Below are positions 4,801 through 43,002 of a stretch of 64,000 nucleotides of DNA, one piece after another. Each line of letters begins with the position of its first letter. Positions within the stretch are counted from its first letter, which is position 1. This DNA is from Bolinopsis microptera. Taxonomy: Eukaryota; Ctenophora; Tentaculata; Lobata; Bolinopsidae. The stretch is taken from assembly GCF_026151205.1 (NCBI RefSeq), contig NC_087084.1:8357394-8421393 (forward strand). Reading direction: 5' to 3'. Both the position numbers and the translations under genes were made by a program. Under the pieces are notes generated by a model. It had not been told where the DNA came from. It made no database searches and saw only the letters and a program-made list of their open reading frames with translations.

Positions 4801-4846
4801 AGAGCGCAACATCAACCGTAATGCTAATAATAACTCTGTCCCATAA
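1832..4846 (+). CDS. 5'-truncated LINE ORF2 (APE endonuclease + reverse transcriptase)
   Basis: This is one open frame of about 1000 codons. The N-terminal part is an apurinic-type endonuclease entered in mid-domain: it has the NET catalytic motif close to the start, GDFNLNL near residue 130 and SDHLAI near residue 195. A basic linker follows, then a LINE reverse transcriptase with LLIDFSKAFD, GVPQGSILGPLLF and the YADD active site near residue 670, and a thumb/C-terminal part ending in a stop at 4844-4846. The order EN-RT and the RT motifs are typical of the Jockey/CR1 superfamily. There is no starting Met: the frame continues upstream to the poly-A run, so the copy is 5'-truncated. The 3' untranslated part runs to about 5190. 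The RT frame is intact, so the insertion is fairly young, but without its 5' end it is probably immobile. Confidence 0.9.
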
Positions 4847-8651: not shown

Positions 8652-8671
8652 TTTCCTCCAAACCAAAGAAA

Positions 8672-9538: not shown

Positions 9539-11517
9539 GCTTTGTTCCCCATGCTCCCTGGTTTGATTCTGAGTACAAAGATCAAAGGAAACTTAGAAGG
9601 AAAGCCGAGAGAACTAAGCATAAAAGTGAGGAGAACAGGATACTCTTTGAAGAGATCCGAGATGAAACAACAAACATGGCTAATCTTAAAAAACAACAGT
9701 ATTATAAAGGTTTACTTGACAAAAATCAACATGATGTTAAAGCTATATATAGCATTGTCAATCGTGAGCTTGACAGACATCAGAATACTCCTCTCCCAGA
9801 ATCAGAAGATTTTTCAAAACTTTGCAGTGATTTTAATCACTATTTCAATGAAAAGATCAAGAACATTAGGAAAGATTTCCCCAGCATAGAAGATTTTGAT
9901 GTTGATAAACACATTATGAATCAACAGAACAATTCCAACTGTGAAGGTCGGTTATATGAATTTGAACCATGCACAGAGGATGAGCTGTCTGAAATAATCA
10001 AAGAAAGTGGAATCAAGTGTGCACCATCTGATTTTCTTCCAACAACTGTCCTCAAAGACAATATCACAAGTTTCATTCCTGTCTTGTGCAAACTGGTGAA
10101 CCAGTCTCTAGCTAAGGGCACATTCGACGGTTTGAAGACTGCTGACATTATTCCTACCATCAAGGACCACAAACTTGATCCAAATGACTTCAAGAGCTAT
10201 CGACCTATATCTAACCTCTCTTTTCTGGGTAAACTCATCGAGAGAGTTGTGCTGAAAAGGTTAAATGAACATCTGGCTAAAAATGATCTCAATGTTCCAC
10301 AGCAATCTGCCTATAAGAAGTTCCATTCTACTGAGACCATCTTGTTAAAAGTAACAAATGACCTACTGCTGGCATGTGATAGCAAATCCTCCACTGTTCT
10401 CATGATGCTCGATTTATCTGCAGCCTTTGACACAGTGGAACACAGAAAATTACTCAAAATTCTTTCTGAAGAGATCCATATCGGAGGTACTGCTCTTAAA
10501 TGGTTCAAGAGTTTCCTGGTAGGCCGCACTCAAAGAACCAGAATAGGCTCTTCTACTAGTGATACGATCATTCTAGAATTTGGTGTACCTCAAGGTTCTG
10601 TGTTAGGACCGGTGCTATTCAACATATACATCAGATCTCTGTATAGGACCATCGAGAAATCTGGATTCAATGTGCAAGGATATGCAGATGACCACCAGGT
10701 ATATAAAACTTTCAAACCTTGTGATCAGGTAAATGTTCTGGGCATCCAAATTGTGAATTGCGCTAGGACCATACAGCGCTGGATGGTTGAATATTGCCTT
10801 CAACTTAATCCTGGAAAAACACAAATACTTATCATCGCCTCACCTCAAGTTCTTAACCAGGTCAGTATAGGGGGAGTTAAGCTATCAAATGATACCTGTA
10901 TCAGATTTGTCAGCACAACAAAGAACCTTGGTGTTCAAATTGACCATCATCTTACTTTTGAGCCTCAAATCATGTCCCTCAAAAAGCATTGTTTCAGACT
11001 CCTTAGGAATGTAATAAGGAGAAAATATCTTTTTAGTAAAGCTCAGCTCAAGCTTATAATTAACAGCATCATTGTCTGCAAATTGGACTACTGCAATGCT
11101 CTTTATTATGGAATTAGTGACAACCTCATCCACCAACTCCAACTCGTTCAGAATGCAGCTGCTAAAGCTATAGTAGGACTATATAAATATGATCATCTAG
11201 GAGACACTCTGAAAGACCTTCATTGGCTGCCTATTAGTTACAGAATTCAATATAAGTTATTGCTTCTTGTCTATAAATGTCTTAATGGTATGGGACCAGA
11301 TTATTTAAGTGATATGTTTAAATATGCCAATTATAATCATCTTATCTATTTGACTGAACCAAGAGTATATTCACAGTATGGAGAAAGATCGTTTCAGAAG
11401 GTTGGCCCTAAATTATGGAATGAGCTGCCTCTTGAAATTAAGAATTGCATGTCACTGGAATCTTTTAAAGTGTATCTGAAAACGTTTCTTTTTAAACGTG
11501 CTTTTGATATTAATTAA
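9520..11517 (+). CDS. LINE ORF2 C-terminal part: reverse transcriptase
   Basis: The 665-aa frame begins in the EN-RT linker (PHAPWFDSEYKDQRKLRRKAE) and contains a complete RT: SYRPISNLSFLGKLIERVV, LMMLDLSAAFDTVEH (motif A), FGVPQGSVLGPVLFNIYI (motif B) and YADDHQVY (motif C). The C-terminal region (LDYCNALYYGIS, LQLVQNAAAK, LHWLPISYRIQYK) is characteristic of CR1/L2-like LINEs. It stops at 11515-11517, about 200 bases before the (ATT)n tail. All catalytic aspartates are present; the only damage is the upstream frame change. Confidence 0.9.
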   Translation: MVQKTISFVPHAPWFDSEYKDQRKLRRKAERTKHKSEENRILFEEIRDETTNMANLKKQQYYKGLLDKNQHDVKAIYSIVNRELDRHQNTPLPESEDFSKLCSDFNHYFNEKIKNIRKDFPSIEDFDVDKHIMNQQNNSNCEGRLYEFEPCTEDELSEIIKESGIKCAPSDFLPTTVLKDNITSFIPVLCKLVNQSLAKGTFDGLKTADIIPTIKDHKLDPNDFKSYRPISNLSFLGKLIERVVLKRLNEHLAKNDLNVPQQSAYKKFHSTETILLKVTNDLLLACDSKSSTVLMMLDLSAAFDTVEHRKLLKILSEEIHIGGTALKWFKSFLVGRTQRTRIGSSTSDTIILEFGVPQGSVLGPVLFNIYIRSLYRTIEKSGFNVQGYADDHQVYKTFKPCDQVNVLGIQIVNCARTIQRWMVEYCLQLNPGKTQILIIASPQVLNQVSIGGVKLSNDTCIRFVSTTKNLGVQIDHHLTFEPQIMSLKKHCFRLLRNVIRRKYLFSKAQLKLIINSIIVCKLDYCNALYYGISDNLIHQLQLVQNAAAKAIVGLYKYDHLGDTLKDLHWLPISYRIQYKLLLLVYKCLNGMGPDYLSDMFKYANYNHLIYLTEPRVYSQYGERSFQKVGPKLWNELPLEIKNCMSLESFKVYLKTFLFKRAFDIN

Positions 11518-15049: not shown

Positions 15050-16403
15050 GGGGGGGGGGGGGGGGTCAATGGGTATTTTTTTGTGAAACTTGATTTCGAG
15101 ATAGTAGTTGACCAACAAACTAGGACCAGTGACCGAACTTTTGAGGGGGTCCCGGACCCCAACCGCCAAACGGTGCGCGCAGGGCAGCCACGCCCATATT
15201 TGGTCCAAATTAGGCCCAATTTAGCCAAATACCCTGAACATGCCCAAAACCCAGGTTTATGGTGCTCTACTTGTAGCTAGTGGTCTCCTGAACTCGTATA
15301 TGAAATTTCATCAAGATTGGACAAAAAATGACTGAGTTATGAGCCAAAAACCATATGCCCATATTTGGGCATACGCACCAAATTTGGTAGATTTCGTCCC
15401 ATAAATTGGTCAAATATCAATATTTTTGGATGAGACTTACTTTATATGAAAGGTAAGCCTAAACTACATATTCTCTGTAAGTTATAGCTTTATATCTGTT
15501 TAAATGTGGATACTAAGGCGAAAAAACCACAAAAAATGAACTAAATTGCCCATATCTCGGTTCGCGATATTCGCGGAATTGATCTCACCAAAATTGTAAC
15601 AACTCAATCAGTTTTCAAAATTTTTGCATGAAATTTTTGAAATCGACTCGAAATCGCATTTCGACCTTATTTTAAGAACGGATTTTTGATTTAGGCCTCA
15701 AAAAAAATTTGGCGGCCAAATTCTGAATTTCTGTAATATAATTTTGGAATTTGGCCGCCAAATTTTTTTGAGGCCTAAATCAAAAATCCGTTCTTAAAAT
15801 AAGGTCGAAATGCGATTTCGAGTCGATTCCAAAAATTTCATGCAAAAATTTTGAAAACTGATTGAGTTGTTACAATTTTGGTGAGATCAATTCCGCGAAT
15901 ATCGCGAACCGAGATATGGGCAATTTAGTTCATTTTTTGTGGTTTTTTCGCCTTAGTATCCACATTTAAACAGATATAAAGCTATAAATTACAGAGAATA
16001 TGTAGTTTAGGCTTACCTTTCATATAAAGTAAGTTTCATTCAAAAATATTGATATTTGACCAATTTATGGGACGAAATCTACCAAATTTGGTGCGTATGC
16101 CCAAATATGGGCATATGGTTTTTGGCTCATAACTCAGTCATTTTTTGTCCAATCTTGATGAAATTTCATATACGAGTTCAGGAGACCACTAGCTACAAGT
16201 AGAGCACCATAAACCTGGCTTTGGGGCATGTACAGGGTATTTGGCTAAATTGGGCCTAATTTGGACCAAATATGGGCGTGGCTGCCCTGCGCGCACCGTT
16301 TGGCGGTTGGGGTCCGGGACCCCCTCAAAAGTTCGGTCACTGGTCCTAGTTTGTTGGTCAACTGCTATCTCGAAATCAAGTTTCACAAAAAAATACCCCC
16401 CCC
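15050..16403. mobile_element. TTAA-flanked foldback element with ~650-bp arms (piggyBac-like, non-autonomous)
   Basis: The two halves are reverse complements over nearly their whole length, around a centre at about 15725-15745 (GAATTTCTGTAATATAATTTT). The outer ends are G-rich/C-rich and are flanked on both sides by TTAA (15046-15049 and 16404-16407), the target duplication of piggyBac-type transposons. No transposase is encoded. It sits in the 3' end of the copia-like ORF: the last ~70 codons of that ORF, after the LADCL motif, are read from the foldback arm. Removing the insert and one TTAA leaves the ORF in frame with a short conserved-looking tail coded at 14975-15045. The insertion is therefore recent. 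Confidence 0.88.
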
Positions 16404-19400
16404 TTAAACAATCTGCCAACATGATGTCAGTAGGTATCCATGTTAATGACTTTAGTGTCTTGTTGGAGAGTGTTTGTTGAAGTTCTGCTAGGTCGAGTCT
16501 CAGTCTCTTTTCTTCACACTGCTTCGATGTATGAACGTGATCATGTAACTGTTTAGAATCAGCGAAACCTTTGATTGGTATGACTTCACTCTTCGGATCT
16601 CCGTACAGTATCTCTGACAGTATTTGTCGGACATAGATTGCAGCTCCCATGGCATCTATGCAAGCTAGAGTTTCGGCTCCAAACGCCGAGTGCACGACAC
16701 GTTTTATCTTCCTAGTACTCCAGTCGATTAAGTTAGCCGTTTTTCCGTTAGTTAGAAAAACAAGGTAACCTCTCCCACTCTGTGTCTGTCTTCCGTTCTC
16801 TGTGAACGTGTTTCCAACACTAGCATCAGTGTAGAATGTGATCGAAATGTTGTCTCTCTGCAGATCCAAGCCTTTGAAACACAGTGATTTTGGTCCTCCT
16901 GCGATTTTCTTAGTAACTTTGTTCCAATCTGGACGGGTTTGGCCACTAAGCCACAACATTCTCCCGAGTTGTTTCTGGTACACTTTCTTTTCTTCTTCTG
17001 TCAGCTTTGACTCTGGGGGTTTCTTCTGTTCCGGTTTCTTTAACCTCCACATCACACCCTGCTTCCTGATATCGGCAGGTGGTTTCAAATACACCTCACG
17101 AGTCATTTCATCCGATTCTTCGTCTTCTATCTCCAAGTTATACTCATTATTGTACTGACCAGTCGATTTTCCTGCCCGACTTGTCACGAGTCCTTTTGTC
17201 CAGTCTTCGGTTTCTTGGCCTCTAAATCTCACTATATCATCCTTCTTGAGATTGAGAGCTCCTTTCTTCACCGGCTCTACATTGGTCCAGTCCTCTTCAA
17301 TCTTCACTGGCTCTTTACTTTTCCAGTTCCCTTCAATCTTCACTGGCTCTACACTGGGCCAGTTCTTTTCAACCACGCGACTAATAGTGTTGTCTTCAGT
17401 TTCATTCAACACCTGCACAACAGGATCCTCTGTATCTCCCGATTCCTCACAGTCGCTTTCCACTGGTTCTTCTGTACCTTCAGACTCCTCACAGTTGCTC
17501 ACAACTGGTTCTTCTGTTCCTTCACATTCCTCACGGTCGCTCAATATTATCTCTCCATAAAGACGACTTCCGCTTTGTCTACGGATCCCACGTGTGACAT
17601 TCCTTTGTTCCACTCCCACTTGGAGTCCTACAATCCTCCCGCTCCCGTCTGTACCACGGTTCTTTGCCTTTGTGCGGGGTTCTTTATCAACTGCAATCCC
17701 GCCAGCACACATGCTACGAGTCTTTGTCAGCTCTTCTTTGTCATCACTTGGTTGATTCAATTCTTCAACCCTCCCGCTCCCGTCAGTACCACGGGTCTTT
17801 GCCTTTGTGCGGGGTTCTTTCTCAACTGCAATCCCGCCAGCACGCATGCTACGAGTCTTTGTCAGCTCTTCTTTGTCATCACTTGGTTGATTCAATTCTT
17901 CAACCCTCCCGCTCCCGTCAGTACCACCGGTCTTTGCCTTTGTACAGGGTTCTTTATCAACTGCAATCCCGCCAGCACACGTGCTACGAGTCTTTGTCAG
18001 CTCTTCTTTGTCATCACTAGGTTGATTCAATTCTTCAACCCTCCCGCTCCCGTCAGTACCACGGGTCTTTGCCTTTGTGCGGGGTTCTTTATCAACTGCA
18101 ATCCCGCCAGCACACGTGCTACGAGTCTTTGTCAGTTCTTCTTTGTCATCACTAGGTTGATTCAATTCTTCAACCCTCCCGCTCCCGTCAGTACCACGGG
18201 TCTTTGCCTTTGTGCGGGGTTCTTTATCAACTGCAATCCCGCCAGCACACGTGCTACGAGTCTTTGTCAGTTCTTCTTTGTCATGACTTGGTTGATTCAA
18301 TTCTTCAACCCTCCCGCTCCCGTCAGTACCACGGGTCTTTGCCTTTGTGCGGGGTTCTTTATCAACTGCAATCCCGCCAGCACGCGTGCTACGAGTCTTT
18401 GTCAGTTCTTCTTTAGTGTCCTTGTCAGTGTCTTCCTCATCTTTATCATAAGGGTCTTTTCCTCCAGCTCTCATTTTATTCACTGTCATTTCCTGATCAT
18501 GTGGCGGTACAACTCTAGAATCCTCTCCTCTCCCGATTGACATCCCCATGTGTCCTGAAGCTGTGTCAAGGATTGGTTCTTCTCCGCCATGAGCATACAC
18601 TTTCTTATTTCCTACATCGATGACAAACCTGTGTTCATTCATGGTTTGTTTTGACAGCAGTAACGGAATGTCTGTGTCGACAACATGTGTTCTAATCACT
18701 ATGTTCTTACCAAACATTTTCACAGGTAAAGTTACAAGCTTTCTAGCCACAACGCTTTCACCATCTCCAAAGCGAAATGTTGCTTTACTGTTCTTTGTCT
18801 TTAACTTCCTCGCTTCTTCCCCTGTGAGTGACTCTGTGTAGACTTCTAGCCACTTTTTTCCACATACCGTTGCAGACGCACCTGTGTCTAGTAAACCTTT
18901 GTTTACAGTTTCTCCGATGAAGTATGTATACTGTTCGTCTCTTTCAGGTAGAACTACTTCTCTCGTCATATCAGCCAGGTATGTATACCTTTGTCTTTGA
19001 CCTTCTGTCTTATAAGTATTTCTTTGACCTTCAGTCTTGTAAGTATTATGAGGGCAGTTTGCTACACGATGGTTTGGATTTTTGCAAATATAACAACCCT
19101 GGTAGTTTTGGTTGGTTTGCTTTGTTCGGTTATCATTGCCATTACCATACTTTCTGAACTTTCCTTTCCCCCTGAACCTTCCGGTATTGTAAAGAACACC
19201 CTCATCTTCACTTTCTGCAGTTTCTCCACTGGCACTGCTGCTTTGTCTACTTCTTTGATCTGTAAACATGATGCCTTGTTCTTCCTTAAAAACAGTTTCT
19301 ATCCGGGTAGGACTTTCAAATGGTACTTCATCTCCAAATGTCTGCTTCAACGATTGGACCATCATTTTATAGTCTAGCTTTGTTATTGTTGCTTTAACAA

Positions 19401-19812
19401 GCCGTTTCTGGTCCGGGTTAAGGTTTGCTTGATTGAGAAGTTTATACGCTAACACTCCATCCTCGTACACTTCTTTTTCCCTCAGTTGGTCTATCTTCTT
19501 TCTTTTCTGTTCAAAGTCTCGCACATACAGGTCCATTGCTACACCTTCTGGTCTCTTATAGTGCTCGAAATCTTCAATTGCCATGAACAGATCGTGTGTG
19601 GCGTCTTTTAGAAACAGAGAATCCAGCTCTGTTATCAGCTTATCAACTCCGGTTTCAACTCCTAACTCTGCTGGTGCTATTTGTAGTGCTGCTTCATACG
19701 CTCTTCCATTCATGAATCCAATCAGACGGCTGGCTTGTTGAGTTTTCTTTGCTGTTGTTCCCAACTGTTGGAACCCTGTTCTTGGGTTAATTAAATAACA
19801 AATAATACTCAA
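16189..19812 (-). CDS. Copia-like Gag-protease-RNase H polyprotein without integrase/RT core
   Basis: The open frame of 1207 codons carries a Gag domain (residues ~20-165). A CCHC zinc knuckle follows (C240-x2-C-x4-H-x4-C253), then an aspartic protease with DTGAS at 309-313. Six 45-residue repeats occupy residues ~468-737. After an acidic stretch comes a short segment rich in lysine and tryptophan. The frame ends with a copia-type RNase H (YTDASVGN, AETLA, GFADSKQL, LADCL near residue 1135). The integrase HHCC/DDE core and the RT YVDD box expected between protease and RNase H are missing, so this is an internally deleted element that still keeps an open frame. The final ~70 residues come from the inserted foldback. 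The first residues (before ~17) may be intron: a 3' splice site lies at 19765, and the Gag N-terminus is found at 22506-22583. Confidence 0.88.
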   Translation of the reverse strand: MSIICYLINPRTGFQQLGTTAKKTQQASRLIGFMNGRAYEAALQIAPAELGVETGVDKLITELDSLFLKDATHDLFMAIEDFEHYKRPEGVAMDLYVRDFEQKRKKIDQLREKEVYEDGVLAYKLLNQANLNPDQKRLVKATITKLDYKMMVQSLKQTFGDEVPFESPTRIETVFKEEQGIMFTDQRSRQSSSASGETAESEDEGVLYNTGRFRGKGKFRKYGNGNDNRTKQTNQNYQGCYICKNPNHRVANCPHNTYKTEGQRNTYKTEGQRQRYTYLADMTREVVLPERDEQYTYFIGETVNKGLLDTGASATVCGKKWLEVYTESLTGEEARKLKTKNSKATFRFGDGESVVARKLVTLPVKMFGKNIVIRTHVVDTDIPLLLSKQTMNEHRFVIDVGNKKVYAHGGEEPILDTASGHMGMSIGRGEDSRVVPPHDQEMTVNKMRAGGKDPYDKDEEDTDKDTKEELTKTRSTRAGGIAVDKEPRTKAKTRGTDGSGRVEELNQPSHDKEELTKTRSTCAGGIAVDKEPRTKAKTRGTDGSGRVEELNQPSDDKEELTKTRSTCAGGIAVDKEPRTKAKTRGTDGSGRVEELNQPSDDKEELTKTRSTCAGGIAVDKEPCTKAKTGGTDGSGRVEELNQPSDDKEELTKTRSMRAGGIAVEKEPRTKAKTRGTDGSGRVEELNQPSDDKEELTKTRSMCAGGIAVDKEPRTKAKNRGTDGSGRIVGLQVGVEQRNVTRGIRRQSGSRLYGEIILSDREECEGTEEPVVSNCEESEGTEEPVESDCEESGDTEDPVVQVLNETEDNTISRVVEKNWPSVEPVKIEGNWKSKEPVKIEEDWTNVEPVKKGALNLKKDDIVRFRGQETEDWTKGLVTSRAGKSTGQYNNEYNLEIEDEESDEMTREVYLKPPADIRKQGVMWRLKKPEQKKPPESKLTEEEKKVYQKQLGRMLWLSGQTRPDWNKVTKKIAGGPKSLCFKGLDLQRDNISITFYTDASVGNTFTENGRQTQSGRGYLVFLTNGKTANLIDWSTRKIKRVVHSAFGAETLACIDAMGAAIYVRQILSEILYGDPKSEVIPIKGFADSKQLHDHVHTSKQCEEKRLRLDLAELQQTLSNKTLKSLTWIPTDIMLADCLRGGYFFVKLDFEIAVDQQTRTSDRTFEGVPDPNRQTVRAGQPRPYLVQIRPNLAKYPVHAPKPGLWCSTCS
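17600..18410 (-). repeat. Six 135-bp tandem repeats within the polyprotein gene
   Basis: The period is 135 bases (45 codons). Each unit encodes a variant of ELTKTRST-AGGIAVDKEPRTK followed by a glycine-rich turn and EELNQPSDDKE. The copies differ by only a few bases, so the array expanded recently. It lies where integrase would be expected. Highly charged low-complexity protein is predicted, with no known fold. Confidence 0.9.
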
Positions 19813-32000: not shown

Positions 32001-35000
32001 TTTGACTGATTTATCTTCTGGACAGTTCTTGGAACATTGGAAGTTCAATAAAAATCAGTGCAGTAGAGGAGTAAACTTGCACGAGAGTTAAAATGGTACT
32101 ATTATAATCTGTGTTGTCAGGTAAGATTTCAGTTTTAACTTTTTAGTGGCGTTTTTAATCACGATAAACTCCCCTTAAATCGCATCTTTTGGCGTTAAGC
32201 TTAACTCCAAAAGATGCGATTTAGCGACGCGTTATAAAATTTTCAAAATATTTCTTAAACCGCATCTTTTTCAATGAAACAAGAAATTTCAATGAAACAA
32301 GAAATTTAATTTTAGCACATTTTTACAGAATAAAAAGATGTAAAACAATTCATAAAATATAATGCCCATTTGGTGTATGACTTTTTGTCCTTGACTGCTA
32401 GTTTGGTTTTGGAAGGACAGGTAACTAACGGGGCAAGGAATGCGCGTGCCTGGAAGCTTTTGCACACACCGAAACGCTAGTTCAGTTAAGTTTATAGAGA
32501 CAAGGCTCAGATTAGGACTAGAAGAAAAATTGTAAGCAGACATTAGGGGTTCTGTTTATAGTTGTTATTATAGGTTGCAGTCTTGTTGTGACAAAAAGTC
32601 TACACTAAAACATTCTTTGGTTTATATTGTGTAGTTCAAGGATATAAAATGCAGCTTCAAGCTTTCAAGGTGGATATTGGAGAGCTGGCGAAAGATTATG
32701 GCCTTTGTATCAATGGTTATAATAAGCTATAAATATCTTAAACTATACAGTGCTAATTAAAATTTCTTTAAACTTCATTCTCAAATTAGATTTTTAAAAT
32801 TCAAAAGTAAATATACAATAATTTTATTAAAACTTTCTCACACATACTTTACTCACAGGACAAGACTTGGAAAACAGTAGCCTAGGGTAATTTTAATTGA
32901 GATGTGTGTGACCAGCCAGTTATAATGTTTGGGAAATAAGATTTGCGCAGTCAAAATCTTTGACAGTCCAATCAAGCAGGGCGTGATTATGTTGATTCGT
33001 TAATAGCGCACGTTTTAGCTTACCTCGCAAGCACATTACACTAGTAGTAAAGTCAGTCATTCTGAATTTTGGGGTTAAAATGTTAAAAATTTTGGTTGAT
33101 CTAGTGTTGTGATTGTCAGGTGGGTCTGCCTGACAGATTAGAAGGCAGGGTTTCCTCGAGGAACACGTGTAACCTTCATGTAAGGATATTGGAGCACGGA
33201 ATTTCATTATCTTGTAGAGCTCGAGGTAACTGTGGTATGTATAGAGATTTTGTATAGCTAGAATATTATTATGCTTAAATATCGGTTTGGTGTGCTCTTT
33301 TATGAAAAATTTTTGGTCAAGTTTCTGGTGTCCTATAGGCCTAGTACGTGCACAAGTCTTAAACTTATCAAGGTACGCCAGCCTGTCACCAAATAGTACT
33401 CTGAGACAGTACTTCTGAGCAGTAAATAATGAGCTTATACGTTGTTTCGCTGCCCCACCCCATACAGATATACAGTAGGAAAGATGTGATTCGAACAGAG
33501 TATAATATAATTGTTGGTGTAGAAATTCTGGAAGGGAGCAGCGAAGTCTACATAAAGTGGATGTGGAATGATTTAGAGTTCGCTTAAGTGCTTTGATGTG
33601 ATCTTCCCATGATAGGTTCTCGTCAATTATAACACCCAGAAATTTTGCGGATGAAACCTTTTTGATTGGAAAGTTGTCTATAGTTAATACAACTTCAGGG
33701 TGTGATAAAGTCTCTAACTTAGAACCTGCCATGGTGGGTTTGAAGTGTATGTAGCAGCACTTAGACATGTTTATATGTAACTTATTCGCTCTCATATAAG
33801 ACTTTAATGATGACAAAAGCTCATTTCCTCGTTCATATGCCTCACGTTTTGTTTTTCCGACAACAAATATATTGGTATCATCAGCAAAGGTAACAAATGA
33901 TCCTAGTTTAGAACTGTTTGTGATGTCGTTCATATAAAGAAGAAATAGGAGAGGTCCAAGAATTGAACCCTGTGGGACACCAAATTGAATAGATAGGGTA
34001 TCTGATTTTTCTCCTACAACTTCGGTGTATTGTTGCCTGTTTGTCAAGTAGCTTTTAATGAGGTTATTTGCAACTCCTCTCACTCCACATCCCTCTAGTT
34101 TTATAAGAAGTGTTGAATGGTCGATAGTGTCAAAAGCTTTGCTTAGGTCAATGAATATTCCTAAAACATGATTCTTAAGTTTAAGAGATTTCGTAATCAA
34201 ATTTACAGAGTAATTGACTGCATGAGATGTAGAGTGAGATTTCCTAAATCCAAACTGCGTCTTCGATATAACTCCCTGGGAGCTAACAAATCCGTATATT
34301 CTAGAATATATGAGCTTTTCAAAGATCTTACCGAAGACGGACAGTGTGGAGATAGGACGGTAGTTCTCAATTTCTTCTGGGTTACCTTTCTTATATACAG
34401 GTGTTATTTTACCAGTTTTCAGGACATCAGGAAATATACCTTTGGTCATAAGGATATTGAAGTAATTCGATAATACAGGTGCAATTACATGAGATGACTT
34501 TTTTACTACACTTATGGGAATGTCACTGGCTTTACCATTTTCGAACTCGCTTATGATTTTCAATATTTCGTTCGAGGAGCAATCTTCTAGCCTAATATTT
34601 TTTTCATTTCTTGGGTTCAGGAAGTCATAGAAAGTTTTCATGGGTAATATAGGCAGGCCATCAGATAGATTATGCAGTGTCTCATTCAGCTTTGGTGCAA
34701 TAGAGACAAACCAAGCATTGAATCCATTAGCAATTGCTCTTCTATCAACTATTCTTTGGTTATCAATGATAAATGGGGGCTTGGTTTGCCTCTTCTTTTT
34801 GCCCCTGAGTTCGTTAATAATTTGCCAGGTTTTCTTGCTGTTTTCACAGTTGTTTACGATTTCGTTACAGTAATGCCAACGTTTGGCAGCTTTAATGATA
34901 GCTTTGAGCATCCTACGATAATCACTAAATACTTGGTAGAGCAATAAATTACCACCAGGGTTCTTATTAGTAACGGTGTCAGACCACTCCTTACGCAGTT

Positions 35001-38000
35001 CATGCTTTCTTTCTACAGACTGGATGATACTGTCTGTAATCCATGGGTTAAGTTTGGGAGTTCTTTTTGTCACTTTTGGTACCTCCAGTTTGCAGTGTTT
35101 GTCAAGTGTCTGGTCAAAACATGCCGTGAACTCATCAAATTTTGTTGAAGGAGTGAGCTGGTTTACCCTCACCTCAAGTTCAGATACAAAGCTTTTTAAT
35201 TTGGAACTTGAGTAATCATAATAGCGGACATGTTTCTGAGGCTCTGTATTGCGAGGGGTCTCTACTGAAGTGAAGGTAAATATAGGGGCATGCTCACCAA
35301 GCCGTTCTTCAATAACACCTGATAAGACTATATTCTCAATTTTATTTGTTAAAATGTTATCGATGCAGGAACTTTTACAGTTTTGACGAAAATGTGTTGC
35401 AATGGAGATAGTCGGGTAAAAGCCATTTCTGTATAAAGTATCCTCAAAGAGCTGGGAACTGGTAGATATATTAAGTATGTTTGAGTTAAAGTCTCCCAAC
35501 AAATTGACAGTTTTCCCATTTAGCTGCTTTGCAAGTAATTCAATGGTTTCACAAAAGCTATCAAAGCAGCCATTAGGGGGTCGGTAGATGACTCCATGAA
35601 CAATTTTGCAGCCTGCGCTATCTGTGGTTTCAACAAAGAGACTCTCAATATTTGTAGTACAGTGTGATACATTTTCTAAGACCACAGTGTTTAAATGGTC
35701 AGATACATAGAGTGCAACACCTGTGCCTTTTTTCTTACCTGCCAATGTTTCTTGATAGAATCCAGTGTATGCTGGAATTTGGTACAGACCCTGCTGTGCA
35801 GGATCAGTATTGGTTTCAGCAAGACCAATCATATCAAACGAGTGCCCTATACTTTTGAGTTCAATTAGGAAGCTATCAAAGTTAGATGCGTTTCCATCTA
35901 TATTGTAGAATAAAGTTGATAACATAGATTTTTTTGAGGAATTGAGCTGCTTGATTGCATTTAAGAACTCGAGTTTAGAGTAGCGACGGCAACTTTCAAG
36001 TACATGGGCATATGATGCAATTAAGGCATCCTCCTGGTTTCTATTATCATAGAATCTATCAGAATCAATAGATTCCTCATCAGATGGAAATGGGCAGTAC
36101 CGTTCTTCTGCAGAACTGGCACACTCGCAGCACATCCATAGTCCATTTTTGCATGAATATTTAGCTGATTTGAAACACTTAGTATGAATGGCATTACTAC
36201 AGTTTTCACACTCTAGTAAAGGTTGTCCGATATTAATAGATCTACTGCATGGCTCACACACATCTTTAATAATTTTCATAATCATTTTTACTAAGTGGGG
36301 TTGTTAGACCCCACTGACTGGTTGTGTTTTCCACGTCTTGTCCGTTCTTGCCTCTCTCTCACATACACCCAATGCTTCACACACCTCACAAATTTGGTAA
36401 TACCATAAACTCCTAAGTGAATATCATCACCACCTCTGGTCAGGTTGGTGGCAAGGAGTCCCTTGCTATCTAAAAAGTGTCCAACTCCAAGGTGCCACAC
36501 ACTCTGGTTAAAGTTGGCACTCAACATTTCTCCAACAAGCCGATTGAAGGTCATGATATTCTCGTTCATTTGAGGTAGCCTGGTTGGAAGGACTGCTGCT
36601 ACAAAAACTTTGATCCTAGGGGAGAGCTTTTTTATCTGTTGGATTTTCATGTGGAGAATGTCAACCAGCTGATGGATTGAATTTTCTCCTCTAAGGCTGT
36701 CTGCTCGGAGGTCATTTGTACCACAAACAAGAACAGCGTTACTGTATCCGATACAGTGACAGGGGTCAATCAAACTAACTTTGCTTGCCTTAACTCTTTC
36801 ACCCGGGAATGATTGACCCATTGTTCCAGCACCACTACCAAACTTTATTGTTTTGGTGTTCGAATCTCCAAGTATGATGGTGCTTCTCCTAAATTTTTTG
36901 TCAATTGCTCTAAGGGTAATGGAATACCGGCCCATAGACGGGTTTACCGGAGTCTGTTGGGTGGGTTTAATCCCGTGTTTGAACCATGCCTGTGAGAAAC
37001 GTGTCATGGTGTAGACTGAGTTCGATTCTAGGGACATTTCAGTATTTTTTGTAGGTGATTGTCCTTCATGGATGGGCATAAAACTTATTTTTCTAACTTC
37101 TCCTATGGAAATTGTTGCTATATCAGAGCCAGCAAGAATCTCTGGCTCGTCGTCACAGTGGAAGGGTAACATACTTTCCTCTGTACCACTTGGAGGGAAG
37201 TAGTTTATAAGTACAGAGTTAGGCTTGTGCGTGAGTTTACACTGAGAAGTGACTCTATCAATGGCTGCTGATAATACTGGTGGGATAGCTGGTGAGGACG
37301 GGGGATTTGAGTCTCCGGAATAAGTGTAGCTTTCGCCGTATTTGAGCACTGACCTTCCATTCATCTGGTTAAACTTACCAGATTCTTTGCACTCAGTGAG
37401 AAATCTGGATACCTCGTCAAGCAGTTCTTCGTCCAAGATGTCTACTTGGTAGTCCTTTAACGGCACCCTTACACATTTAGGGAGAGCTACTGATGGTTTA
37501 CTCTCTTGTATAACTGCTGCAGCATAGGCAGAGGTGGAATGATTCCTAGATTTCTGGAAGGAGTGGATCTCTCCACTCAGTTGCGAAAGTCTTGCTTCCA
37601 ACGATGAAATCTCCACGGTAGGCATGCTGTAGGATACAGCACTTGAGATGGCATCAGATACAGCTTGGATGTTCTTACTGTAGTCAACACTAGACTTGAG
37701 AGCTTCATCCAATTTAGCTGAGGTGCTGCTGTTTGGCTTGGAATGGATTGACGTGAAGCACCATGGACATTCCCAGTACTGAAGGATGGCATCAAGATCA
37801 ATCTGACCAATCTGGTTTGCTCCCTTAAGGTTACTGCAAGAGGCGTGCCAATGCTGAGAGCACCTGCAACATTTGAGAAGCCATTCTTTGCCCTCAGAGC
37901 TTGCTCGACAGGGACAGTTACCTTTAATGGCACGTTGCTTTGGACTTGGCTGATCTTTTTCTTCTTCTTCAGTATGGAAGGGTGGGAACGGTTTGTACAT

Positions 38001-41000
38001 AGGACTCATAGGGCTCTGAGGACTACCCCTTAGGCTGCCAGGGTCTATTATGAGGCTAGGACTAATTTTTAGGGTAAGAGATGTAGGTGGCTGTAATGTT
38101 GATAGTCCCGGTGAGGAAACAGTGACCTGCTTATCAGCTGACTTAGTTGGCAGGCTGTTTGATCTTCGTCGTCCTGAGATGCTGGCTGCAGGGTTCTTCT
38201 GATTGGCCTTGCTTGTGAGGGGGCTCTTCCTGCGAAGAGGATTAGACACTTTAGGGGAATGAGGTGAGGTAGCCTTAGCCTTAGCAGATGCTGCAGGAGA
38301 GTTGTTTCTGGGCGAGCGTCTGGTTTCGAGTGGTGGTGTTGCAGTTCTGTTCATGACTGTGGATTGATCAGGGGGATGTGCTGAGTGCCCTCTGGGCTGC
38401 CACCACCGGCGAATAAGCTGCACCTGAAATGAGTAGATCATGGGTGGACGTCTGATTTATAATGGAAAAAGGGAACATTGATTACTTAGAACTATTTAGT
38501 AACTAGTTTTTTCATTAGATATACCATAAAGAAGAATTGATTTCGATTGAAACATGATATAACAATAAGTTGCTTTAAGGGTGGATGGTTGGGTAGGTGA
38601 AGTGGTGGATGTTGTTGATTGGATTTAATGGTTTGATGAAGCATATGTATCGTTTGGAATTTCTTTATGGGTTAGAGGGTGGGCTAGGGTTGGGTAAAGG
38701 GAATTGTGGGATTCCTAGGTAAGGAGACATTGTGGAAAGCTGGTAGAGTAAATATAAATTGTAGTCGACGAGCTTGCCACAAAGGGATTTAGAGTAAAAT
38801 AAGCCACAACAATCAAATAATTTGGTTATGGTCATACAATAATACAAGTTATGAAAGGTAAATATATATCAAAATCTGTTTGAATTTGGGTAAGAAACTT
38901 GTATTATATAATGACTATCCAATAGACCACTGACACAAAGATACATGTAGTTTAGTTAAATAAAGTTAACACTTTACACACAACAAATAATTTAAGGAAG
39001 AGACCAGCCAGAAGCCAGCAATCAATGTCAGGAGCTTTTAGGGAGGGGCATTTTATGAGAGGATGTTGGTATGTGTTGTGATGTGGAATTTCATAATCTA
39101 CTCATCTTCAGTTGGAGCATCATCGCCGGCAGCAACATCCCTTTGGACACCTTCGCATCATCCCCCAGTGATCATTCTTTTACTCAGACATTGATTGCGG
39201 CTCGAAGGCTCGGTCTACATCCTCCAATTATTTGTTATATAGTAGTGTTGAAAGTATTAAAACGAGTTAACGACACGAATTACGATTCTAGCTTTCGGTT
39301 TAAAGCGCATCTTTTGGCGTTAAGACTAACTCCAAAAGATGCGAGTAAAGAATCGATAGATGCACGTTCACGACTCGGGTTTTTTAAGAAATTTTAGCGT
39401 AGAAATGCATCTTTTGAGCTTAAGCAGGCATCTTTTTTGCGTCAAAGCGCAATGTCCAGGGCCCGGTGTCACGGGGCCTTAAGGTCTATTTTAAAATTCT
39501 GAGAGACCAGAAGTTTCTAAATGGTCCTTAGAACATATCCTGAAAGTTTCAAGGTGATTGCTCAAAAAATGTAGGAGAAGATAGATTTTTAGACTCGATT
39601 TTCAGGGCGTGCGATTGAAATCGCTCGCGCAATACAATTACACATGAGCGCTACCCTTTGACCGGCAATAATTTCGGCTAGGAACAAAATTTTTCCATGG
39701 GACCAAAAACATCTGGTAGATATCACTCCCCTCTATCAGAAACAACTATAAAATCAATTTCGAGAGAAGACCCCCCCTGCCCCCTTAATATAATACAGGG
39801 TGTCCCAAAAAAAGCTTCTCACGTCATTTAGTAATTTATTTAAATGCTCCAAGATCCGTGTTTAATTTTCCATCAGAAACCAGTTTATTTGGCCCATTCT
39901 TGCTTTCCTAGAATGGGTACTAATTGGATTTAATACATAAAAACGTTTATGAATGACTGAAGACCACATTCTGATAATTCCTAGAATTCTTAAATGATAT
40001 TTTCACAGTGGATCCTAAAAAGAAAAGTGAACTCACCAATTCAGCTCTTGTAGATAGCATCTTCCCATCTGTCCCGTCTTTCAATGATTTTGGTTGGTAA
40101 GACATTACTTTCTGTGGTCATTTTTTTCAGCAACAGAAAATAATATATATTATATAATAATATATTAATGAAGTATAGTACTAGCAAACAGTGATTGTAT
40201 GTTCAGCCTTTTTGAGTTACACACTTTTAAATCACAGATCAAACGAAAAATAAAAGTTCAACTGACAACATCTCTGGCCTTGATATTGCGCCTTCTACTG
40301 ATGCTGTTCCTCAAAGTTCTTATCCACAAGCACACAACGATAAACCTACATTATCATCAGCTAATAATTCAGGTATCTTAAATAATTTGACATAATTGTT
40401 GATTATTGTTGAGTTGTCGCTGAGATTTTCGATCGTGTATTGTGATTTTAGCAATCTAATCCAACCTTAAATATTTCAAATATTTAGGAGGAACAACAGC
40501 CACTAAATCCCCCTTGTCAACACCAATGGCTTTGGAAACCTCAAAGAAACAATTTAACCCTGTTTCTGAACGAGATTTTGGTCTGCAACTACGCTGTGGA
40601 AACTACTATACTGTTGGTACTGATATTCCATCAAATCCTGAAGAAAAAGCTGTAATTATAACCAATCTACGGTACGATTTCAACCACCAACAATCACTGA
40701 TGAATGTAGTTAAAAAGTTCGGTCCAGTAGAGAAATTACATTATCGTTTTATGAAAATGAGGCACATAGCTTTGGTGGAATACAAAGATCATAAAAGTGC
40801 GTTGAGATTTATGATGGCCCCTGGCAACCTCTCCATAAAGCAGCCAAGCACCCGAAAATTCTGGCGACTGATTTTACCAGTACCAGATAATGATGCTGGT
40901 TTCGCTGCTGTTCAAGCTCATTTGACACAGCCCCCAGCTCAAGCAAGGGTCTCAGTAAAAAGAAACAATTTGACACAGCCTCCAGCTTTGACACAGCCCC

Positions 41001-41449
41001 AAATTCCATCCAGGGGCTTAGTGAAAAGAAACAATGTTCCCAGGACAATTCCTTCCACTTCTAGCACAAAGTCACAAATGCAAGGGAGTCATAACAATTT
41101 TGAGATGCATGTTCCTGCAGTTGTTCCAAGTCTTGAGGAAACTGGATCCAGAAACTCAACTGCTAGGACTCTGTCATTTGCTCCAAAAAGAAAACCAATG
41201 CTTAAACTAAGCTCTAAACCTAAAAGTTTTGATCCAGTCAGTACCAATGATATAGAAATAATTGATTTAGAGGCAGTCAGCCAAGATTCAGTTCATGATG
41301 AATACGTCATTGTGATAAAACCAATTGTAATAATCGACGATGAAACAGTTCATCCGATGAAAAAATCCGACGAAGCTAGTGCAGAGAAGAAAAAGGAGGA
41401 GCAACATCTATCAGCACAGCTTCTTTACATTCTATGGAGACTGGATTAG
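26016..41449 (+). CDS. Spliced RRM-protein gene (RBM26/27-like), N-terminal and first RRM exons
   Basis: Five exons join in frame, all introns in phase 1: 26016-26318, 26494-26754, 40009-40092, 40238-40372 and 40488 onward. Splice sites are AG/GTGAGT, AG/GTGAGT, AG/GTTGGT, AG/GTATCT and AG. The first exon is Ser/Pro-rich. The second contains a PWVTDELLEKIVHNRDLYDKW-like segment resembling the linker between LINE endonuclease and RT. The last one has an RRM: VIITNLRY (RNP2), then KKFGPVEKL and RHIALVEY (RNP1). The frame stops at 41449, but an overlapping frame carries further RRMs (separate entry). Likely an RNA-binding nuclear protein. The true 5' end and start codon were not found upstream of 26016. 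The 13.2-kb intron 26755-40008 is filled by mobile DNA. Confidence 0.65.
27087..27300. repeat. Palindromes of the GCATCTTTTGGCGTTAAG family
   Basis: Near-perfect 36-40 bp palindromes (GCATCTTTTGG...CCAAAAGATGC) occur at 27087-27124, 27181-27216 and 27262-27299. Others lie at 32182-32217 and 39306-39341, with half-sites near 39408 and 39430. They look like a subterminal repeat of the surrounding large element. Confidence 0.8.
27800..27945 (-). repeat. SINE-like copy with tRNA-like head
   Basis: Minus strand: AAGTAGCTCAGCGGCTAGAACG resembles a tRNA A box/D arm and GGTAGTTCTATCC a worn B box. The tail GAGCTTTTGCCC...TTCATGATAAATA is shared with a second copy at about 28805-28905. Decayed and short. 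Confidence 0.55.
28805..28918 (-). repeat. Second, more decayed SINE-like copy
   Basis: Shares with the copy at 27.8 kb the tail TTTATCATGAAAAA...TGCTCAGA-GTGAT-TGAGCAAAA. Its tRNA-like part is barely recognisable. Confidence 0.45.
29017..29057. repeat. Poly-G tract
   Basis: About 40 bases, G except for single C and A interruptions. It directly precedes the minisatellite. Length may be unreliable in assembly. Confidence 0.8.
29103..30527. repeat. Minisatellite, ~123-bp period, about ten copies
   Basis: The unit runs ATAGTGGGTCTGTTG, ATATTGATAGTGGGTCTG, TTGTTATTAAGTGTGTG, TCTACTCGCTTAATAGTGGG, TCTTTGCTACTCTGAAATGG, GTCTGTAG and a short variable link. Within it the sub-word GTGGGTCTGT recurs several times. 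Central copies are nearly identical and edge copies are worn, the usual pattern of unequal exchange. No open frame spans the array. Confidence 0.93.
30768..31285. repeat. Duplicated dispersed repeat (GTAGCCAGGATTTTT type)
   Basis: A ~280-bp segment beginning TGAGTACTTGATTCTTTTCA is repeated at 30771 and 31053. Each copy continues into GTTTCGCAAAAA, a GC-rich hairpin region (GGGGGGCTGCGCCCCCC) and ends AAAATCCTGGCTACGTCCCTG. The same element is found inverted at 60052-60232. It is non-coding and probably a non-autonomous DNA transposon. Confidence 0.75.
31290..32780. other. Unassigned sequence inside the large TIR structure
   Basis: AT-rich, with short frames only. It holds one GCATCTTTTGG palindrome (32182-32217). 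A segment at 31800-31925 ending ACTGTGCTG...ACTCCC faintly resembles 28085-28160. No gene is seen. Confidence 0.35.
32920..36285 (-). CDS. LINE ORF2: PHD finger + APE endonuclease + reverse transcriptase
   Basis: An intact frame of 1121 codons. Residues ~8-65 form a PHD-like zinc cluster (CEPC, CENCSNAIHTKCF, CCEC). The endonuclease follows: YNIDG, AETN (E box), KGTGVALYVSD, YRPPNG, GDFNSN and GEHAPIF. Here the usual SDH of the catalytic triad reads GEH, which keeps the histidine but not the Asp. After a linker (NPWITDSIIQSVERKHELRKEW), the RT has ENYRPISTLSVFGKIFEKLI, IFIDLSKAFDTIDH, FGVPQGSILGPLLFLLYMND and FADDTNIF. It starts five bases after the stop of ORF1 (TAG-TAAAA-ATG), suggesting re-initiation. 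All domains are present, so the element may be competent unless the EN change is disabling. Confidence 0.92.
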   Translation of the reverse strand: MIMKIIKDVCEPCSRSINIGQPLLECENCSNAIHTKCFKSAKYSCKNGLWMCCECASSAEERYCPFPSDEESIDSDRFYDNRNQEDALIASYAHVLESCRRYSKLEFLNAIKQLNSSKKSMLSTLFYNIDGNASNFDSFLIELKSIGHSFDMIGLAETNTDPAQQGLYQIPAYTGFYQETLAGKKKGTGVALYVSDHLNTVVLENVSHCTTNIESLFVETTDSAGCKIVHGVIYRPPNGCFDSFCETIELLAKQLNGKTVNLLGDFNSNILNISTSSQLFEDTLYRNGFYPTISIATHFRQNCKSSCIDNILTNKIENIVLSGVIEERLGEHAPIFTFTSVETPRNTEPQKHVRYYDYSSSKLKSFVSELEVRVNQLTPSTKFDEFTACFDQTLDKHCKLEVPKVTKRTPKLNPWITDSIIQSVERKHELRKEWSDTVTNKNPGGNLLLYQVFSDYRRMLKAIIKAAKRWHYCNEIVNNCENSKKTWQIINELRGKKKRQTKPPFIIDNQRIVDRRAIANGFNAWFVSIAPKLNETLHNLSDGLPILPMKTFYDFLNPRNEKNIRLEDCSSNEILKIISEFENGKASDIPISVVKKSSHVIAPVLSNYFNILMTKGIFPDVLKTGKITPVYKKGNPEEIENYRPISTLSVFGKIFEKLIYSRIYGFVSSQGVISKTQFGFRKSHSTSHAVNYSVNLITKSLKLKNHVLGIFIDLSKAFDTIDHSTLLIKLEGCGVRGVANNLIKSYLTNRQQYTEVVGEKSDTLSIQFGVPQGSILGPLLFLLYMNDITNSSKLGSFVTFADDTNIFVVGKTKREAYERGNELLSSLKSYMRANKLHINMSKCCYIHFKPTMAGSKLETLSHPEVVLTIDNFPIKKVSSAKFLGVIIDENLSWEDHIKALKRTLNHSTSTLCRLRCSLPEFLHQQLYYTLFESHLSYCISVWGGAAKQRISSLFTAQKYCLRVLFGDRLAYLDKFKTCARTRPIGHQKLDQKFFIKEHTKPIFKHNNILAIQNLYTYHSYLELYKIMKFRAPISLHEGYTCSSRKPCLLICQADPPDNHNTRSTKIFNILTPKFRMTDFTTSVMCLRGKLKRALLTNQHNHALLDWTVKDFDCANLISQTL
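36291..38441 (-). CDS. LINE ORF1: PHD finger + AlkB-like 2OG/Fe(II) oxygenase + SGNH esterase
   Basis: A frame of up to 716 codons; the likely start is Met30. Residues ~30-170 are Ser/Pro/Lys-rich and disordered. A PHD finger spans C176-C227. A short coil follows at ~240-300. Residues ~320-515 match the AlkB family: the NSVLINYF strand, the iron ligands H428-x-D430 (FHCDDE), the GSDIATISIGEVR segment, distal iron ligand H489 (WFKHG), and the 2-oxoglutarate pair R505 and R511 in the RxxxxxR motif. Residues ~519-690 form an SGNH/GDSL hydrolase: GDSN at 525-528, GTND at 574-577 and D672-x2-H675. Esterase domains are known in CR1-type ORF1 proteins; the AlkB domain is the unexpected part. AlkB enzymes remove methyl groups from nucleic acids by oxidation, so this protein may demethylate element RNA or cDNA. 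Confidence 0.88.
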   Translation of the reverse strand: MIYSFQVQLIRRWWQPRGHSAHPPDQSTVMNRTATPPLETRRSPRNNSPAASAKAKATSPHSPKVSNPLRRKSPLTSKANQKNPAASISGRRRSNSLPTKSADKQVTVSSPGLSTLQPPTSLTLKISPSLIIDPGSLRGSPQSPMSPMYKPFPPFHTEEEEKDQPSPKQRAIKGNCPCRASSEGKEWLLKCCRCSQHWHASCSNLKGANQIGQIDLDAILQYWECPWCFTSIHSKPNSSTSAKLDEALKSSVDYSKNIQAVSDAISSAVSYSMPTVEISSLEARLSQLSGEIHSFQKSRNHSTSAYAAAVIQESKPSVALPKCVRVPLKDYQVDILDEELLDEVSRFLTECKESGKFNQMNGRSVLKYGESYTYSGDSNPPSSPAIPPVLSAAIDRVTSQCKLTHKPNSVLINYFPPSGTEESMLPFHCDDEPEILAGSDIATISIGEVRKISFMPIHEGQSPTKNTEMSLESNSVYTMTRFSQAWFKHGIKPTQQTPVNPSMGRYSITLRAIDKKFRRSTIILGDSNTKTIKFGSGAGTMGQSFPGERVKASKVSLIDPCHCIGYSNAVLVCGTNDLRADSLRGENSIHQLVDILHMKIQQIKKLSPRIKVFVAAVLPTRLPQMNENIMTFNRLVGEMLSANFNQSVWHLGVGHFLDSKGLLATNLTRGGDDIHLGVYGITKFVRCVKHWVYVRERQERTRRGKHNQSVGSNNPT
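38442..39300. other. LINE 5' region and unassigned sequence
   Basis: The first part should hold the 5' UTR and internal promoter of the minus-strand LINE, but no boundary or target duplication could be found. No other gene is seen before the right arm of the large TIR structure. Confidence 0.35.
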
Positions 41450-43002
41450 GTGTCATCACAGTTGTTTCACAGCATGACGCAATAAATGTTGACACTTGCA
41501 CTGGTGCTTCACAGCTTAAAATGAATGTTAACACAGTTGCTTCACAGCATGTAATGAATGTTAACACTGGTACATCACAACACATGGATGTCACCACGCC
41601 CTTTTTCACACCAGCAGGATTAAGACTTATACCCCACAGCTTCAAGATACTGCCTCCCCCAAATAGTGGTATGGAATATATTATAACAGGATCATTAAGA
41701 CCTACTGTGGGATTGCATAGAAATCTTGTATTACGAGGTATTCCTTATGAGTTAAACATAGAGTCAAATCTAAGATTGCTTACTTCATTTGGTCAATGCA
41801 AGATAATCCCACGATATTTGGGCCTTCGGACAACTGCCTATGTGATGTACTGCAATAATATTGATCCTATCAACTGCTTTAATGGAGCTTATAAAGTATT
41901 GAATCTTGAGTATCTCAAAGTATTTTGGATGGATAAGCTTCCTCTTCCTGATCCCACTTCTCGGACCTGTATTAATGAAGATACTGATGGAGTCGAATTG
42001 GAGTGTGCTCCAGGTGATCTACAAACAAGGAAGATACAGTTCAAAGCTCTCAGACAAAAAATTCTTGCCTATAAAACACATAGAAAGGAACATGCCAGAG
42101 AGAAAATTGACAAGAGTTTCCGTTGGAAACCTTCTGGTATCGTTAAAGCTAAACTTATGATGAAGAGTCAGACGCTTATGTCAAATAACATCAACATTCA
42201 GAAAGTGTTACTCACCCGGCTGGAGTCATGTAAGAACGCTAATACTAGAGAGCGCCTGATGGCCATGCTGAAGAAGCTTGAAAAGACTCATCTTGATCTT
42301 GTAACTACAGTCAATTTTAATGTTCTGAATACTACATCTGAGCCTGGTGACCTGTCAGTAGAACAACCACCACAGCTAGGACCGCAACCAGAACCACAGC
42401 CTGTTCCAACCCCATCTCAACTGCCAGTTCCCACTTCTTCAAATCCCATTCCCAGAAACATAAAGATAGTCAACTTTTCTGATCAAAATGTCCTGCAAAA
42501 CCATTTCATTAAGTTTGGAAAATGCACTGTGGTCAGCTATGTTGTGAATAATTCGAATTTTATTCTTTGTAAGTTTGAGGAAAGTAAAGAAGCAGTCTTA
42601 GCCTTTGAAAAAGGACGAGAATTGGTTTGGTACGAGTGGGGAAATAAAAAAGATATGACCCTGGATCTGGAATGGGGTGATGAACAGACAGTAGAATCAC
42701 AACCTGTTCCAACCCAATCTAAACCAAATGATTTCGTTCCTTCAAACCCCTATCCCAAAAACATAAAAATAGTAAACTTTTCTGATCAAGATGTCCTGCA
42801 AAACCATTTCCATAAGTTTGGAAAATGTACTGTGGTCAGCTATGTGGTAGAAAAATCGACGGTGATTCTGTGTAAGTTTGACAAGAGGAAAGAAGCAGTC
42901 TTAGCTTTTATAAGAGGACGTGAAATGGTTTGGTCGGAGTGGGGGAATAAAAAAGAGATGACCCTTGAACTGGAATGGGATTTAAGTGCACCTGTTGAAT
43001 GA
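41378..43002 (+). CDS. RRM gene, 3' part: RBM26/27-like RRM plus duplicated C-terminal RRM
   Basis: The frame opens after a TAG at about 41374 and is one register away from the preceding RRM exon. A frameshift, an unrecognised splice, or a separate start at ATG 41434 is possible. The protein has an RRM near residues 95-170 (LVLRGIPYELN, then YLKVFWMDKLP) that resembles the RBM26/27 RRM. A basic helical segment follows (KALRQKILAYKTHRKEHARE, KVLLTRLESCKNANTRERLM), similar to the coiled region after that RRM. Two nearly identical RRM copies end it (SDQNVLQNHFIKFGKC and SDQDVLQNHFHKFGKC, each ending near WGNKKxMTLxLEW). The stop is at 43000-43002, and AATAAAA in the 3' region lies at about 43192. 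RBM26/27 proteins work in nuclear RNA surveillance; that role is inferred here. Confidence 0.7.

Follow-up and report, generated by a model that had tools for sequence, protein, structure and literature searches.

AlkB-type dioxygenase domains within transposon proteins of three LINE lineages and a Helitron in the ctenophore Bolinopsis microptera

Introduction

Among described transposons, ZfL2-1 and the other esterase-type (type IV) long interspersed nuclear elements (LINEs) of CR1/L2 have two open reading frames (ORFs), of which ORF1 encodes a helical part and an SGNH hydrolase, and ORF2 encodes an APE endonuclease and a reverse transcriptase (RT). In one survey, the esterase-type ORF1 is reported from vertebrate groups only (PMC4120745), while esterases are already mentioned in cnidarian and sponge elements in excerpts of PMC3905857. 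Here, we describe a LINE with these features from the ctenophore Bolinopsis microptera. It lies in a 64,000-nucleotide stretch of contig NC_087084.1 (positions 8,357,394 to 8,421,393; hereafter, the window), on contig C13 of the 264.65-Mb, 232-contig genome that we surveyed. Its ORF1 shares the catalytic S, G, N, D, and H residues with ZfL2-1-type elements but differs in having an AlkB domain ahead of the esterase, together with a PHD-like finger.

Cells employ AlkB enzymes to demethylate both RNA and DNA, whether the methylation is damage or a regulatory mark. The AlkB domains of plant viruses sit in RNA virus replication proteins, not in a LINE ORF1 or a Helitron, and are thought to protect viral RNA. 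As genetic parasites with a built-in AlkB domain (excerpts of PMC544882), these viruses resemble the ctenophore element. They are not known to have a DNA-only relative. An orchid Ty3/Gypsy retrotransposon also has an AlkB-family domain, for which RNA demethylation was proposed (excerpts of PMC9289625). That element is a plant long terminal repeat (LTR) retrotransposon with a separate, ALKBH5-related ORF and demethylase activity in vitro, whereas the B. microptera case involves animal non-LTR LINEs and a Helitron, with fused domains that appear ALKBH2/3-like. Helitrons share Helitron_like_N and PIF1 domains with the Helitron reported below, and one from platyfish has captured an SGNH hydrolase gene (excerpts of PMC4021074) and so resembles it in the SGNH association as well. 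In the Helitron reported below, however, SGNH and AlkB occur in one protein with the Rep region and helicase, a set kept in four of six relatives, and not as a separate passenger gene.

Among titles and abstract openings in the open-access literature, which excludes most subscription papers, we found no AlkB domain in a LINE or Helitron, so an earlier mention is possible. A survey of ORF1 types of the Jockey superfamily (PMC4120745) contains neither “alkb” nor “oxygenase,” and the passages of PMC3905857 that we consulted do not mention AlkB, although the word itself was not searched for. One candidate, a krill genome paper with both Helitron and AlkB, was set aside because the gene there is a host alkB2 (excerpts of PMC11294593). 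A preliminary sequence-only reading of the window had noted no established precedent for a built-in AlkB; within the literature just described this holds for LINEs, but the orchid LTR element is a precedent among retrotransposons.

Results

The window LINE is structurally intact, and its 716-amino-acid (aa) ORF1 protein (ORF1p; 36291..38441, minus strand, as for all features of this element) contains no stop and is a fusion of PHD-like, helical, AlkB, and SGNH parts that follow a disordered N terminus. The AlkB-type Fe(II)/2-oxoglutarate dioxygenase domain (36894..37484; residues 320 to 516) scored 63.9 bits against PF13532, for which the curated cut-off is 31.2, and its predicted structure has the double-stranded beta-helix fold of AlkB enzymes. 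In a profile comparison with solved AlkB relatives, the best matches were ALKBH3 (2e-26), ALKBH2 (5.4e-24), and ALKBH8 (1.2e-13), with weaker matches to Escherichia coli AlkB (5.8e-9), ALKBH1 (1.2e-5), and ALKBH5 (0.0029). Judged by profile similarity, the domain is closest to ALKBH2/3 among these structures, rather than to ALKBH5. Its HxDDE motif is likewise ALKBH2/3-like; the ALKBH5 counterpart is HxDP.

The remaining parts of ORF1p were recognized with differing clarity. The SGNH hydrolase (esterase) domain (36342..36893; residues 517 to 700) has the predicted fold and the residues S527, G547, N576, D672, and H675. Its single-sequence Pfam match fell below the cut-off, but profile A2, built from the lineage-spanning alignment described below, matched the ZfL2-1 ORF1p esterase (4c1b; E = 7.6e-4). 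The zinc finger (37737..37946; residues ∼166 to 235) matched PHD_4 weakly (E = 0.0014; 19 bits versus a cut-off of 30.6), hence our label PHD-like. The finger of the homolog L044 was likewise under the cut-off (20.4 versus 24 bits), and the Cys/His spacing is visible in those homologs that reach this region. Between the finger and AlkB, three helices are predicted (residues 240 to 251, 254 to 272, and 278 to 300) within a segment (37542..37724; residues ∼240 to 300) that is likely a coiled coil. The Pfam scan of this ORF1 returned neither an RRM nor a zinc knuckle. Thus, the PHD-AlkB-SGNH fusion first read from the letters alone stands for AlkB and SGNH, based on profiles, predicted structure, and homologs, and holds weakly for the PHD part.

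The catalytic residues of AlkB are conserved without exception in the alignments. A protein search returned 13 relatives of the window ORF1, including one Mnemiopsis leidyi protein, all of which contain PF13532 and share 32 to 86% identity in alignment A1. Relatives P0003 to P0022 from public records matched fetched B. microptera copies at 93% identity at best and therefore are not the genomic copies studied here. A profile search for wider distribution returned, among 7,997 candidates scored, 11 ORF1s that were already known and one short fragment (P0022); this result does not imply absence elsewhere. Across the 14 rows of A1, the iron ligands H428-x-D430 (37152..37160) and H489 (36975..36977), as well as E432 and the arginines R505 and R511 (36909..36929), which presumably bind 2-oxoglutarate as in other AlkB enzymes, are invariant (14/14), as are all five SGNH residues. 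The AlkB set is also invariant in the 11 rows of A2, which were picked to span the three LINE lineages (11/11), whereas the first SGNH block varies there. The full set of H428, D430, H489, R505, and R511 proposed earlier is thereby upheld.

The same pattern was seen in the genome itself. We tallied 64 entries, one each for loci L001 to L060 plus L061 to L064, of which three repeat L052, L037, and L058; a spurious minus-strand entry for L040 was excluded, and 3 of the 60 loci are presumed host genes. Because entries were picked by the HxD[DN]E pattern, only H489, R505, and R511 are independent in this tally, and each was retained in all entries that reach it (62/62). The pattern is present in 60/60 loci, which were themselves found by homology.

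When the window copy was compared with two others of 86% protein identity, ratios of nonsynonymous to synonymous rates (dN/dS; NG86) were 0.15 and 0.11 for AlkB and 0.11 and 0.10 for SGNH. Values for the other ORF1 parts were 0.09 and 0.13 (PHD-like), 0.25 and 0.20 (helical), and 0.34 and 0.41 (disordered N terminus). Purifying selection acts on AlkB. The suggestion that intact ligands reflect selection thus agrees with both these ratios and the retention of the ligands among genomic copies. When the window copy was compared with L016 and L044, which are more distant, synonymous sites were saturated nearly throughout. Relative to L004, dS along ORF1 jumps from 0.16 (N terminus) and 0.19 (PHD-like) to 0.68, 0.84, and 0.54 in the parts that follow, as if subfamilies had swapped their 5′ part. 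Separately, L015 to L028 and L030 form a subfamily with a 697-aa ORF1 that is 59% identical to that of the window. Since its 15 fetched copies are ≥99.2% identical to one among them and 13 lack a stop, this subfamily was active very recently.

AlkB is not confined to one kind of element. Searches of the genome located the window ORF1 protein at no fewer than 62 places (best 62 of 1,468 candidates) and gave at least 151 PF13532 matches (best 150 of 587 candidates scored). Among the representatives read, four kinds of AlkB-bearing element could be distinguished: LINE 1 (the window's kind), LINE 2, LINE 3, and a Helitron. RT identity between the three LINE lineages is 26 to 35%; for comparison, the window LINE 1 RT is 40% identical to that of an RT frame at 1853-4846. 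Other classes of AlkB ORF, for example of 592 to 593, 676, 707, and 777 aa, are known by length alone. What had looked like a single odd element is therefore a recurrent arrangement, of which the window ORF1 is a genuine member.

LINE 2 is represented by ORF1s of 646 aa (L037 and L062, which are one element) and 551 aa (L064, whose architecture was assigned by reading, outside the full Pfam scan), with AlkB followed by an SGNH-like part, and by ORF2s of 998 and 1,003 aa with endonuclease and RT. Both GDSL_2 matches (E = 8.3e-6 and 4.6e-5) were under the 32.9-bit cut-off, and profile comparison of the SGNH-like part with that of LINE 1 gave 97% probability; the GDS of the first block reads SSS. 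These profile data support a putative esterase in the LINE 2 ORF1. LINE 3 (L063, the same as L058) has an 884-aa ORF1, in which AlkB comes first and the C-terminal part resembles SGNH, and a 1,191-aa ORF2 with endonuclease and RT. DS-, GVND-, and DxxH-like stretches are visible in that C-terminal part, but an esterase was not recovered by Pfam (E = 0.07) or by profile comparison with LINE 1 (6% probability) or the Helitron (1.5%). No Pfam PHD match was found in the scanned ORF1s of LINE 2 and LINE 3.

The fourth kind of element is a DNA transposon. L061, part of the same element as L052, contains a single open frame of 3,082 aa within the 10 kb read, with AlkB (residues 182 to 314; 6.8e-21), DUF6570, Helitron_like_N (1591 to 1790; 4.8e-22), and PIF1 (2236 to 2442; 1e-21). 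The combination of a Rep region and a PIF1-type helicase in one protein identifies it as a Helitron; no PHD was found in this frame by Pfam. A GDSMVK esterase motif lies in frame with AlkB in the upstream part, L052, and also in L035 and L054. GDSL_2 scored 34.7 bits in L054, over the 32.9-bit cut-off, and profile comparison of the Helitron esterase with LINE 1 gave 80% probability, which together support a candidate esterase in the Helitron.

The association extends beyond one Helitron copy. A genome search with PF14214 gave 41 matches, and six pair with a listed PF13532 match on the same contig and strand and in an open frame of equal length (C3, 3,321 aa; C9, 2,225 and 3,226 aa; C10, 3,388 aa; C12, 2,459 and 3,366 aa). 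The others have no partner among the AlkB matches listed (150 of 587 candidates scored), which does not imply that AlkB is absent from them. In other records, four of six Helitron relatives carry Helitron_like_N, PIF1, AlkB, and GDSL_2, and two show AlkB alone. With the single frame serving as its own internal control, dN/dS in two comparisons was 0.20 and 0.18 for AlkB, 0.39 and 0.60 for the upstream part, and 0.94 and 0.97 for the downstream part, which is repeat-rich and of uncertain alignment. Long proline/alanine-rich and TEGVSSSGPVSLKP-type tandem repeats surround AlkB in L061 (1-9246, plus strand), and a duplicated NCANKCTFCPGFMDNC finger-like stretch precedes DUF6570.

We examined the origin of the AlkB domains with a tree of 26 rows, comprising 23 domains from elements and three genes presumed to belong to the host (L031 to L033, so taken because they scored highest); other ALKBH families lay outside the tree. 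The four element groups and the three presumed host genes each group together. One branch separates element domains from presumed host genes with support of 90/83, which is not decisive, and long branches were flagged. The best tree does not unite the 15 LINE domains in a single clade, and a constrained single clade was not rejected (p-AU = 0.138). Several captures, or old exchange between elements, are possible, and one ancient capture common to all elements is a further candidate.

The whole window LINE spans 32271..39262 (∼6.99 kb), with ends fixed by comparison with other genomic copies. At the 5′ end, matching ceases at 39261-39263 in five other copies (L003, L004, L005, L007, and L009). 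At the 3′ end, 41 matches were listed (best 40 of 895 candidates scored). Apart from the window's own match and one at 70%, all have ≥93% identity, and 37 of these 39 cease at bases equivalent to 32267-32273. The 5′ untranslated region (UTR; 38442..39262, ∼0.82 kb) is matched end to end over 38442-39260 in six other copies at 80 to 99% identity, and the 3′ UTR (32271..32919, ∼0.65 kb) terminates in a short tandem repeat (TTGTTTCATTGAAATTTC) with no poly(A).

ORF2 (32920..36285; 1,121 aa) starts 5 bases past ORF1 and encodes a weak N-terminal C1/PHD-like zinc finger (C1_1; E = 9.2e-4, under cut-off), an APE-type endonuclease (Exo_endo_phos; E = 4.8e-5, 23.7 bits and just under the 24.5-bit cut-off), and an RT (RVT_1; E = 7.7e-37). 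No RNase H matched in Pfam up to an E value of 1. With SGNH in ORF1 and with APE and RT but no RNase H in ORF2, the element has the features of esterase-type ORF1 LINEs (CR1/L2, Jockey superfamily), and its ORF1 and ORF2 architecture makes a CR1-type assignment plausible. Copies 99 to 100% identical to it occur on many contigs, and both ORFs are open, which together indicate that the LINE 1 family is young.

No clear target-site duplication was found at the element flanks. A 10-base flank match was rejected as such because it is part of an element-flanking repeat and lies ∼50 bases off the end on the 5′ side. A palindromic repeat of ∼48 bp (TTAAATCGCATCTTTTGG...) occurs at 32174-32223 and 39301-39350, just outside both LINE ends, with a portion also directly adjoining the 3′ junction; it may be a very small transposon or a favored site of insertion.

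Three other features of the window were recorded. At 7245-11517 (plus strand), another LINE-like array has a 468-aa first frame followed by endonuclease-like and RT frames. The first frame has a weak PHD match (under cut-off), CCHC-like stretches by eye, and no AlkB match, so AlkB is not carried by every LINE of this genome. In a 1,207-aa frame at 16189-19812 (minus strand), a 45-aa repeat occurs six times, inspection by eye suggests a gag-like zinc knuckle and stretches resembling a protease and RNase H, and Pfam gave no match at E 0.01. Beside the LINE, two frames at 40514-43002 (plus strand) show repeated RRM-like segments by eye, and the second has no Pfam match at E 0.01.

Discussion

In more than one transposon class, an enzyme under selection has been added to an otherwise familiar design, that of a LINE or that of a Helitron. 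Methyl groups on the Watson-Crick face block polymerases and arise preferentially in single strands. Our preferred reading, to which we give a probability of roughly 45%, is that element-borne AlkB of the ALKBH2/3 type repairs methylated single-stranded intermediates of transposition. The helices would let ORF1p oligomerize and coat element RNA. Using Fe(II), O2, and 2-oxoglutarate, AlkB would then strip N1-methyladenine (m1A) and N3-methylcytosine (m3C) from the element's own single strands, probably template RNA and nascent cDNA for a LINE and single-stranded rolling-circle DNA for a Helitron, which would keep templates copyable. The SGNH domain may hold the particle at lipid membranes, a role put forward for ZfL2-1, whose esterase binds liposomes (excerpts of PMC3905857), and the PHD-like finger could steer it to chromatin. 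A single-stranded substrate would fit both classes, because LINE and Helitron each have mRNA and an obligatory single-stranded intermediate. The ALKBH2/3-like features favor template repair, since they point to m1A and m3C, two modifications that block base pairing, as the substrates.

A second explanation is that AlkB erases host-written N6-methyladenosine (m6A) or regulatory m1A from element mRNA and so spares it destruction or retention by host readers. The host genome encodes MT-A70 (7 matches) and YTH (5 matches), and excerpts of PMC9289625 show that the orchid AlkB demethylates RNA in vitro. We nevertheless consider this less likely than repair: resemblance to ALKBH3/2 (1.6e-22 or better) far exceeds that to ALKBH5 (0.0029), with the HxDDE motif pointing the same way, and human L1 is helped by the m6A writer METTL3 and hindered by ALKBH5 (excerpts of PMC7873242), the opposite of what this explanation needs. 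Judged on these resemblances, the domain leans toward repair rather than mark erasure.

Less probable still is demethylation of DNA bases, such as N6-methyladenine (6mA), at the insertion site or in the element by AlkB with the PHD-like finger. The presence of that finger in the LINE 1 ORF1, the DNA nature of the Helitron, and the removal of 6mA from unpaired DNA by ALKBH1 (excerpts of PMC7054317) would agree with it. However, AlkB is kept without a Pfam PHD in the scanned LINE 2 and LINE 3 ORF1s and in the Helitron frame, and the ALKBH1 match reaches only 1.2e-5. We rate slightly lower the idea that the AlkB fold merely binds single strands and so stands in for the RRM that other ORF1s have; an RNA-binding part is expected, and the window ORF1 has neither RRM nor zinc knuckle, but invariant iron and 2-oxoglutarate residues (14/14 and 11/11) go beyond the needs of binding alone. 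A chance frame, a misassembly, or a dead captured host gene is rejected by the ≥62 ORF1 places, the ≥151 domain matches, the distinct homologs in other records, and the low dN/dS.

The Helitron case is the most informative, because protection of an RNA genome cannot explain AlkB in a DNA transposon. We tentatively propose, at slightly under even odds, that separate element classes in one animal lineage (a rolling-circle DNA transposon alongside several lineages of LINE) keep their own AlkB, in at least three cases with SGNH, as a self-carried repair or eraser module that was exchanged or captured in parallel, and that this points to an undescribed methylation barrier, either host-imposed or chemical. 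Extra domains retained by transposons reveal which host barriers matter, and the finding makes testable whether m1A, m3C, or m6A acts as a barrier or defense when present on the RNA or single-stranded DNA of transposons. The selected, catalytically complete AlkB domains in three LINE lineages and a Helitron suggest that base methylation, be it damage or a mark written by the host, restricts transposition in this animal lineage.

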